DNA from: Oceanococcus sp. HetDA_MAG_MS8
Lineage (GTDB): Bacteria > Pseudomonadota > Gammaproteobacteria > Nevskiales > Oceanococcaceae
Direction of reading: 5' to 3'
DNA length: 64,000 nt
Assembly (NCBI GenBank): GCA_019192445.1
Contig: JAHCMK010000008.1
Location: forward strand, 62,001-126,000
Part shown: in pieces, positions 61,251 to 64,000 of the stretch
Position numbering within the stretch: position 1 is the stretch's first letter
How the letters are laid out: the number at the start of each line of letters is the position of its first letter
The notes under the pieces: model-generated
Database searches by the model: none
What the model saw: the letters and a program-made list of their open reading frames with translations, nothing else
Told to the model about the DNA's origin: nothing
Made by a program: the position numbers and the translations under genes

Positions 61251-63632
61251 GTGAGTTCAGCTTCCGTCATCTGGTTTTCTCAGCTCGGCATGGGAGATGT
61301 CGAAACTGTTGGGGGCAAAAATGCCTCGCTGGGAGAAATGATCTCCCAATTAGCCGATGCTGGGGTCAGCGTTCCAGATGGTTTTGCCACCACCGCCGCG
61401 GCCTATCGTGAGTTTCTCAACCACTCTGGCCTAGACCAGCGCATCCATGAAGCCCTGGACCAGCTTGATCCCGAGGATGTGCAGGCGCTCATGACCACGG
61501 GTAAGCAAATCCGCCAGTGGGTCAAAGACCAACCCTTCCCGGCCTCTTTGGAGGCAGATATTCGCGCGGCATTTGACCAACTCGCCACAGATAGCGAAAT
61601 TTCCGTTGCTGTGCGCTCCTCTGCAACTGCCGAAGACTTACCGGAGGCGTCCTTTGCTGGCCAGCAAGAAACCTTTCTGAACGTGCGCGGCATCGATGCG
61701 GTGCTCGATGCCATCAAAGAGGTCTTCGCGTCTTTGTATAACGACCGCGCCATCAGTTACCGGGTTCATCATGGTTTTGCGCACAGCGATGTAGCCCTAT
61801 CAGCCGGCGTCCAACGCATGGTGCGCTCGGACAGCGGCGCCAGTGGTGTGATGTTCACCATTGATACCGAATCTGGCTTTGACCAGGTGGTGTTTATCAC
61901 CAGCGCCTATGGTCTGGGCGAAGGTGTGGTGCAAGGCGCCGTCAACCCGGACGAGTTCTACGTCTACAAGCCCAACCTAGAGCAAAACAAGCCTGCCGTT
62001 CTACGCCGCAATGTGGGCGCCAAAGCCACGCAAATGGTTTATACCCAGGATCGCACCTTGGGTAAAACCGTGGAATTTGTAGACGTTCCCGCTTCGCAGC
62101 GGGTGCTGCTCAGCCTCAGCGATGCTGAAGCTGAAGACTTGGCGCGCCAAGCGGTCATCATCGAAAAGCACTACGGCCGCCCCATGGACATCGAATGGGG
62201 TAAAGACGGCGTAGACGGCAAGCTGTACATTTTGCAGGCCCGTCCCGAAACGGTGAAGAGCCGGGCGGGCTCAGGCACGCTGCAGCGCTATAAGCTCAGC
62301 AAACGCGGCGACATCCTGACTGAGGGCCGTGCGATCGGCCAGAAGATCGGTACCGGTGCGGTGCGCAATCTCAGCAACTTGGACGAAATGAACCGCGTTC
62401 AGCCTGGTGATGTGCTAGTCACTGACATGACCGATCCCGATTGGGAGCCCATCATGAAGCGCTGCTCGGCCATCGTCACCAACCGTGGTGGGCGGACCTG
62501 TCACGCCGCCATCATTGCGCGTGAACTGGGGATTCCGGCGGTGGTGGGTTGTGGTGACGCAACAGAAACCTTGCGCGACGACACTGTGGTCACGGTGTCC
62601 TGCGCCGAAGGGGATACGGGCTACATTTATGCTGGCGATCTGGGCTTCTCTGTGGACGAAGTGCAGTTGGACAACATGCCGCCAGTGCCACTCAAAATCA
62701 TGATGAACGTCGGCAACCCGGATCGGGCATTCGACTTTGCTTCTATTCCGCACGCGGGCGTGGGCTTGGCCCGCTTGGAGTTCATCATCAATCGCATGAT
62801 TGGGGTCCACCCCAAAGCCCTGCTTTACTTTGATGATCAAGCGCCGCAGCTGCAGGCTCAAATCGCCGATCTGGTTGCTCCTTACGACAATCCTGTGGAC
62901 TTTTATGTGAAGCGGCTTGCCGAAGGCATGGCCAGCATCGCGGCCGCCTTCGCCCCCGAGCCGGTCATCGTTCGTTTGTCCGACTTCAAGTCCAACGAGT
63001 ACGCCAACCTGATTGGTGGCCAGCAGTACGAGCCCCATGAAGAGAACCCCATGCTGGGCTTCCGTGGTGCCTCACGCTACCTGGATCCTAGCTTTGCGGA
63101 CTGCTTTGAGTTGGAATGCCGGGCTGTTCACTATGTTCGCGACACCATGGGCTTGCATAACCTCAAAATCATGGTGCCCTTCGTACGCACATTGTCTGAG
63201 GCCGAGGGTGTGATCGAGCTATTGGCCAAGAACGGCCTCAAGCGCGGCGAGAATGGCCTCGAAATCATGATGATGTGTGAGCTGCCCAGCAATGCTCTGT
63301 TGGCTGATCAGTTCTTGGAACACTTCGATGGTTTTTCGATTGGTTCCAATGATATGACCCAGCTCAGCTTAGGCCTGGACCGGGATTCTGGCTTGATTGC
63401 GCATCTCTTCGACGAGCGCAATGAGGCCGTCAAAGCCCTCCTGCATATGGCTATCCAAGCCTGTCGCAAAGCGGGCAAATACGTAGGCATTTGCGGCCAG
63501 GGCCCATCCGACCACCCTGATCTTGCTCAGTGGTTGCTGGACGAAGGCATCGAATCGGTGTCATTGAACCCCGACACCGTGCTTTCGACATGGTTATACC
63601 TCGCGGGTGAAACGGCCCCCGGCGCCGAATAA
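61251..63632 (+). CDS. ppsA: Phosphoenolpyruvate synthase
   Basis: 793 residues. It makes PEP from pyruvate and ATP for gluconeogenesis. The start is GTG with GAGGG upstream. The ATP-grasp domain comes first ([19 protein letters not shown]). The swivelling phospho-His domain has [15 protein letters not shown] with His418. The C-terminal PEP/pyruvate barrel contains [38 protein letters not shown] and CGQGPSDHP. Its last codons form one arm of an 11-bp hairpin (see 63616-63674). Confidence 0.96.
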
Positions 63633-63643
63633 ACCCCGCTTAA

Positions 63644-63674
63644 TCCCGGCGCCGGGGGTCGCCCCGCGCCGGGA
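63644..63674 (+). terminator. GC-rich hairpin after ppsA, possible terminator
   Basis: Arms 63644-63652 and 63666-63674 form 9 bp, and the loop contains a further GGGG/CCCC stem. The tail GTCTGTACTTGCTT is only moderately T-rich, so intrinsic termination is plausible but weak. The 5' part is also complementary to 63616-63626 in the ppsA 3' end. Confidence 0.45.
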
Positions 63675-63751
63675 GTCTGTACTTGCTTCAAGTCACAGTG
63701 ATTCAACGGCCAAGAATGGCTCGTTGAGGCTGGCCGCAACCTAGTGTCCCT

Positions 63752-64000
63752 TAACAGAAGTTCGTCGCACATATGCGGGTCAGCACGGGGTGTGCCGCTA
63801 GGCGCGCTCGCGCAGGAATGGTTGTTCCATTTCAAGCGAGCGCAACACCGCGGAACGCCCCGTGCTGGCTCGCCCGAAGGGAGCCCCTCAAATCGCCTGC
63901 TACGGCGTTGCGCTCCTTGGCAAGGGAATAACCATTCCCGGCGGAGCGCGCCTTGTATCAGACGATTTGAGGGGCTCATATATGCAACGAACTTCTGTTA
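63752..64000. mobile_element. MITE/REPIN-like inverted-repeat element with two hairpin modules
   Basis: Terminal arms of 24 bases (63752-63775 and 63977-64000) are inverted repeats matching at 22 of 24 positions and begin TAACAGAAGTTCGT. Between them lie two modules in opposite orientation that share a core (GGCGCGCTC, about five bases, GGAATGGTT[A/G]TTCC, then GAGCGCAAC). Each is enclosed by its own stem: 63781-63790 with 63858-63867, and 63881-63895 with 63963-63977. No protein of coding character is present. The right end is at the window edge, so it may extend beyond. The left flank CTAG (63741-63744) could be part of a target site, but this cannot be tested here. Confidence 0.65.

Follow-up and report, generated by a model that had tools for sequence, protein, structure and literature searches.

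The window, a stretch of DNA of 64,000 nucleotides, ends within a 265-bp element (63744-64008, flanking TA excluded) whose last 8 nt lie outside it. The element is short, has terminal inverted repeats (TIRs), is multicopy, duplicates TA and is without a transposase, and by these tests it is a MITE. It is quite probably moved by an IS630 transposase and carries twin hairpin modules in inverted orientation, whose fold appears to be selected on one strand and most likely acts at the RNA level. The parts of the element are the following.

63741..63744, no strand: left target site CTAG, with TA at 63742-63743 as the presumably duplicated dinucleotide
63744..63775, + strand: left terminal inverted repeat GTGTCCCTTAACAGAAGTTCGTCGCACATATG, of IS630 type and like the TIRs on IS630 elements elsewhere
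63775..63873, + strand: module 1, sense on +, with the core TAGGCGCGCTCG...CGAGCGCAACACCG within the outer stem 63775-63798/63850-63873
63873..63881, no strand: central linker CCCGAAGGG (other strand CCCTTCGGG), which separates modules 1 and 2
63881..63977, - strand: module 2, sense on -, with the core CAAGGCGCGCTCC...GGAGCGCAACGCCG and an outer stem that contains the perfect 15 bp GAGCCCCTCAAATCG
63977..64000 and on to 64008, - strand: right terminal inverted repeat, followed by TA at 64009-64010 outside the window

Directly outside each end of the element lies a TA within CTAG. The left end begins at G63744 with GTGTCCCTTAACAG... and the right end is GGGACAC at 64008. An earlier note on this DNA had described two paralogous halves, inverted with respect to each other and enclosed by 24-bp inverted termini. 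The paralogy and the inversion were confirmed, as the 24-nt terminal arms 63752-63775 and 63977-64000 are 92% complementary and the core blocks 63800-63850 and 63903-63953 are 78% complementary over 51 nt. The 24-bp arms are present as described, but the real termini are longer, being imperfect TIRs of about 32 nt that reach 8 nt past the window. Each module also has the self-complementary stem that had been claimed for it, with 83% complementarity between the 24-nt arms of the left module and 91% in the right one (63881-63903/63955-63977), the perfect 15-bp part included. A covariance model matched module 1 with 82.7 bits (contig C8 125770-125877, +) and module 2 with 103 bits (contig C8 125876-125982, -). 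Judged by eye, a linker of similar type occurs in the elements of many relatives. The coding capacity over the window copy consists of just two frames of 95 and 150 codons, and a Pfam search with both gave no match at E<=0.1. By eye, the gene upstream is phosphoenolpyruvate synthase-like. Right after its stop lie two overlapping GC-rich inverted repeats (63613-63674), which are probably its terminator, and the element starts about 70 bp beyond them.

A BLAST search with 261 nt against the element's own genome returned 38 rows, eight of which cover at least 244 of the 261 nt; the remainder consists of fragments, of pieces at contig ends and of rows that match the same copies in reverse complement. 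The covariance model found 20 modules in the genome, one of them partial, and the terminus pattern occurs at 35 sites, compared with 2 for the reversed control pattern. The earlier expectation of many copies was thus borne out by eight near-complete copies, their fragments and 20 module matches, and the element is not single-copy. Two subfamilies with the termini TGTCCCTTAACAG and TGTCCTGTCTCCG are present, which are about 91% identical over the element. Contigs C1, C3, C4, C6, C7, C8, C10, C11, C13, C14 and C15 have at least one end inside an element copy, so that the element probably breaks the assembly and its true copy number is uncertain.

One copy, at contig C3 567819-568088, is at least 99% identical to the window copy and sits inside a gene, which we take to be VOC-family-like. 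When this copy was removed and its flanks were joined with one TA, a 141-residue open frame was obtained whose alignment with homologues from four relatives runs through the joint (135-141 residues, 44-50% identity). Three of these alignments are gapless, and the fourth has one single-residue gap away from the joint. Because the single-TA joint restores a frame that aligns with four relatives, the element is inserted in this gene with TA duplication, and the insertion is probably recent. The empty site that the earlier note had proposed to look for was thereby found, for this one copy. The search covered 20 other genomes, of which 4 had a DNA match to the C3 flanks and 16, the close relatives G001-G003 among them, had none. 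Among plasmids, no empty site was found for a copy on a Pseudomonas aeruginosa plasmid. TA or CTAG adjoins the ends of many other copies, and some have changed ends, such as TG in place of TA (locus L007).

Several copies in this genome have features of their own. A copy at contig C11:1-226 (L010, about 55-121) is interrupted in module 1 at GCGCAAC by a stretch of about 70 bp, in which three GC-rich hairpins can be seen by eye; perhaps this is another small mobile palindrome. About 220 bp from the gene-interrupting copy, a lone module (contig C3:568312-568420; L003, about 1960-2110; 52.5 bits) lies between different imperfect ends AATCCCTGRTYCAATC by eye, which suggests a third element family in the genome. 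At contig C1:509138-509407 (L006, 1485-1488) the edge CTAG supplies the stop codon of the upstream open frame, and the insertion may therefore have shortened that gene.

The module has the form stem-CAAGGCG-hairpin-GCAACGC-stem and is about 107 nt long. Folded as single-stranded DNA, positions 63740-64000 (261 nt) reach -90.2 kcal/mol compared with -47.4 +/- 3.9 for 200 dinucleotide shuffles (z -11.0, with 0 of 200 shuffles as good), and the other strand gave z -10.5, so that folding of both strands, a check suggested by the earlier note, was positive. For the consensus, 26 modules from the host genome and eight other holders were aligned around CAAGGCGC...GCAACGC. The consensus fold comprises 29 pairs, of which 24 change on both sides in some sequence, and 88.1% of the cells are paired, whereas shuffled alignments reach 62.6% and slid ones 35-44%. 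For covariation the score is 0.650 as opposed to 0.198. The outer stems are without shared sequence and are still paired. Together with the strand preference described below, these values support the earlier suggestion that the fold itself is selected, and the stems are kept in other copies. In a search of 63600-64000 against Rfam no family reached the gathering threshold; the eight weak matches were all to miRNA models and far below it.

The fold appears to be under selection on one strand, namely the CAAGGCG strand. Mismatches were counted in a loose motif scan of 2.5 Mb of loci, which scored G.T and A.C equally in the arm alignment and returned 283 modules (105 of them non-redundant), whereas decoy motifs returned 5, 2 and 5 matches. 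In the outer stems of the 105 modules the CAAGGCG strand has 113 G.T and 21 A.C mismatches (p 2e-16, an optimistic value as the modules are related by ancestry). Per module, more G.T was seen in 56 and more A.C in 7, the remainder being equal. The modules at loci found without the covariance model show the same direction, with 14 G.T and 4 A.C. If double-stranded DNA or a symmetric cruciform alone were selected, G.T and A.C should be equally common, and the excess of G.T on the CAAGGCG strand thus argues for selection on the folding of a single strand, either RNA or ssDNA. A mutational bias towards C>T does not explain the excess, since the core has 45 G>A and 35 C>T substitutions, a comparison in which the scan motif blocked C>T at one of the four C sites and G>A was possible at all three G sites.

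All 108 adjacent module pairs in the scan, which represent 44 non-redundant double elements, are arranged face to face, each sense strand running inwards from the element's ends. Within these 44 elements the two modules agree by 0.88 over 8 core letters, a figure inflated where modules were picked by their core, and by 0.80 over the 7 letters that the scan left free. The 20-nt stem arms agree by 0.30 within an element versus 0.32 between unrelated elements. Such divergent stems would keep each module folding on itself and not with its partner, and the inverted layout would place one hairpin in the proper orientation on the 5' side of either strand. Two-module rows for which a terminus was found measure 263-285 bp, with L107 as the sole exception, and elements with one module exist as well (e.g. 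L221, L241). The only exception seen to the facing arrangement comes from outside the scan, in Aquisalimonas lutea (G839:C1:519047-519259, L478), where both modules point the same way, as though the second hairpin had been flipped. This tandem element has the ends CTAGGGAAACGCTGAACC, and a renewed search with the model recovers its first module only.

The terminus pattern TAGTGTCC-N2-T-N4-GAAGTTCGT was scanned for in one genome per species, which gave 112 stretches. The partner transposase was then looked for at 98 loci, composed of 80 of these 112 genome stretches and all 18 of 18 viral stretches. Three of the 98 loci, namely L194, L218 and L231, contain an element of 1158-1172 bp in which an IS630 gene is flanked by such termini on both sides. 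They come from one Nitrospira (L218), one Acidobacteria and one Myxococcales MAG, and the second ends of these intact elements have 0, 3 and 2 mismatches to the 16 fixed letters. The IS630 protein P0001 is matched (tblastn) at 11 of the 98 loci, and both P0001 and the Nitrospira protein (L218) belong to IS630 according to Pfam DDE_3 and NCBIfam transpos_IS630. An IS630 on a Streptomycetaceae plasmid has ends similar to those of the element, and the host's own terminus gave weak matches only against plasmids (best E about 1), a second terminus giving nothing useful. IS630 prefers CTAG targets.

In the host genome no IS630 transposase was found (PF13358 at E<=1e-8; NF033545 at E<=0.001), and no module match was obtained in G841-G843, the three genomes whose IS630 of the matching terminus type is intact. 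The partner is accordingly deduced from the ends and the target, and an IS630 transposase probably moved the copies of the host genome. The same ends do exist on a transposase-bearing element, as the earlier note had anticipated, but in other genomes and not in the host. A module-bearing element and an insertion sequence with identical termini were seen together in none of the genomes; for the intact IS630 of G279, the only matches to its termini are its own two ends and not the twin-module elements of that genome. A terminus pair 100-500 bp apart occurs at 28 loci, of which eight match the model and two more (L169, L201) the motif. The remaining 18 have neither a model nor a motif match for the module, and it is therefore not needed for elements with these ends. 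A Myxococcales MAG (nzgw250; L171, L173, L197, L207) has 217-bp elements with the host genome's terminus type, and within L171 and L197 there are additional copies of GGACACTAG, which looks as though elements had jumped into one another. A Gemmatimonadales MAG (L176 6666-7141) has a 475-bp element with the same termini, in which, by eye, a short open frame with a lysine-rich end seems to lie in the module's place.

The module is not confined to the relatives of the host. With strict filters and E<=0.001 it was detected in 123 of the 369 genomes sampled from the class, and at E<=1e-5 in 95 of the 398 sampled from the phylum, the host being included in both. In single-contig genomes the matches number 83 (G205), 58 (G029), 53 (G351) and down to 1 in others. 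Seventeen genomes were reached via the terminus search, of which ten have the module and seven have none. The numbers of module matches in individual holders are listed below; low counts in MAGs are weaker evidence, because foreign contigs can end up in a bin.

Competibacteraceae MAG: 138
Reinekea sp.: 122
Acidobacteria MAG: 85
Aquisalimonas lutea: 35
second Acidobacteria MAG: 21
Natronospirillum operosum: 12
Halomonas elongata: 3
Planctomycetota MAG, Gemmatimonadales MAG and a further Acidobacteriota MAG: two each

The holders thus belong to the four phyla Pseudomonadota, Acidobacteriota, Planctomycetota and Gemmatimonadota. The same architecture is found between differing termini, namely GTGTCC..., GTACTCC..., GTGTAGTGC..., GGGTCTGTTGACG..., GGAAACGCTGATC... 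and TATACCCAAGCC..., in a table in which 21 rows are without a terminus and some others have a short one only. The ends GGGTCTGTTGACG were seen on Azotobacter and Pseudomonas plasmids and differ in one letter from the terminus of an IS5-family element on an Aeromonas caviae plasmid. As ends of both IS630 and IS5 type occur, module-bearing elements use the ends of at least two transposase families, and judged by these ends the module is not bound to a single transposase. Modules also occur on contigs classed as viral, with nine matches in the 80 of 120 loci examined (L316 and L322 of IMGVR_UViG_3300022695_000189, and also L295, L298, L323, L285 and L315), and one viral-classed contig of 16 kb has two twin-module elements. 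The other 40 of the 120 viral stretches (L356-L395) and 32 genome stretches (L244-L275) were covered by the motif scan only.

A mechanism may be proposed on this basis. An IS630-family (Tc1/mariner-type) transposase acting in trans would recognise the terminal repeats of about 32 bp, GTGTCC...GAAGTTCGT, and insert the element at TA, preferably in CTAG, with duplication of the TA. As the modules face sense-first, a transcript or a single strand from either side would meet a correctly oriented hairpin first. The module would fold in read-through transcripts, and a widely conserved host factor could read the conserved bulged core CAAGG.../CAAC. By ending or processing the transcript, this factor would keep the damage to host and terminal repeats within limits. 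The fold most likely acts at the RNA level, in read-through transcripts, as suggested by the strand preference, the orientation-independent layout and the behaviour of Neisseria MITE transcripts described in the available part of PMC2229807.

It has to be considered, however, whether the folded strand is ssDNA, in which case the module would be extruded in replication and aid the gain of copies via fork stalling, repair or end presentation. This is a serious rival to the RNA role, even if on balance unlikely. Any single strand that tolerates G.T better than A.C would account for the strand asymmetry, and the ssDNA folds far better than its shuffles on either strand (z -11.0 and -10.5). Some ssDNA transposases, moreover, read their ends as bulged imperfect hairpins. 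On the other hand, the 18 of 28 same-terminus loci without a detected module indicate that it is not required for mobility, and the termini and the TA duplication are typical of a double-strand DDE transposase. A module without current function, inherited from one ancestor with its termini recombined and its complementarity kept via template switching between the hairpin arms, is improbable. The narrow size range and the uniform layout of 108 out of 108 pairs would fit such common descent, and hairpin arms can stay complementary without selection through template-directed repair. Yet the stems are at background identity (0.30 vs 0.32) while the scan-free core letters stand at 0.80, simple correction of the arms does not predict the direction of G.T over A.C, and the holders are spread over four phyla.

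The paired inverted hairpins with a one-sided bulge have a REPIN-like outline, and the earlier note had offered a REPIN, a MITE or a structured RNA as candidates. A REP/REPIN-type element with a RAYT (HUH/Y1) transposase reading the hairpins is very unlikely and was rejected: the foot of the hairpin in the module consensus is without a GTAG or CGTC tag, the module measures about 107 nt and not 20-40 nt, and the TIRs and TA duplication match DDE elements. Still less credible is a fixed structured RNA gene or riboswitch-like element that is not mobile. The strong covariation and the conserved core would be expected of it, but no Rfam family was matched at threshold, the copies are dispersed between inverted termini, and the empty site largely refutes it for the window element. 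Of the candidates in the earlier proposal the MITE is supported, by its termini, TA duplication and empty site, whereas the REPIN is not supported and a structured RNA that is fixed in place is largely refuted. With the IS630-moved MITE as the preferred reading, a broader one is put forward tentatively: CAAGGCG-hairpin-GCAACGC could be an undescribed single-strand unit, gained by or passed between non-autonomous elements whose ends belong to unrelated transposase families (at least the IS630 and IS5 types) in four phyla, read by a near-universal bacterial factor and usually doubled in inverted form so that it works in either reading direction.

MITEs are usually viewed as worn-down insertion sequences with an unimportant interior. 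In the present case it is the interior that has been conserved across phyla, between differing ends, which reverses this picture. It opens a way to test why small parasitic elements retain hairpins despite their cost and whether these are read by a host factor. With up to 138 module matches per genome and a third of the sampled genomes of the class, the element may affect transcript ends and assembly breaks in many bacteria.

In the literature covered, which leaves out much, no description of the core or the terminus was found, and an earlier description under another name is possible. An intrastrand triplex motif of enterobacteria was rejected as a match, as its consensus CCCTCNCCC...GGGNGAGGG, given in the accessible part of PMC4666352, differs from the module consensus by eye. 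The REP/REPIN sequences are palindromes of 20-40 nt with an unpaired GTAG or CGTC tag (PMC3733652), whereas the element has no tag, and has TIRs and a TA duplication. The nearest described elements, as far as the available portions of the sources go, are RUP, Correia, CIR and MITEPsy1. RUP of Streptococcus pneumoniae, for which movement by IS630-Spn1 is proposed, is likewise a MITE with IS630-similar termini and TA-containing targets and without its own protein; it differs in its 107 bp, in being described from one species and in that the excerpted text of PMC2229807 describes no twin-module interior. Unlike RUP, the module is spread over several phyla and terminus types. The Correia/NEMIS elements of Neisseria share the TIRs and the TA at the ends, and their transcripts form folded structures that RNase III is proposed to cut, but a CAAGGCG/GCAACGC module is not described for them in the same excerpt (PMC2229807). 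CIR of Caulobacter and Brucella resembles the element in its two long arms with a linker and a structure conserved between species; in contrast, it has GANTC methylation motifs, is tabled without a TIR and, within that excerpt, has no described CAAGGCG core (PMC2229807). MITEPsy1 of Pseudomonas syringae, which probably derives from the IS5-family ISPsy2, is also non-autonomous, targets CTAG or YTAA and is thought to be moved by an insertion sequence transposase in trans, but it has 100 bp, an 18-nt TIR and a 4-nt duplication, and no twin module is described in the part of PMC3189936 at hand. Compared with these systems, the element is judged to be a new, widespread variant of the bacterial MITE.
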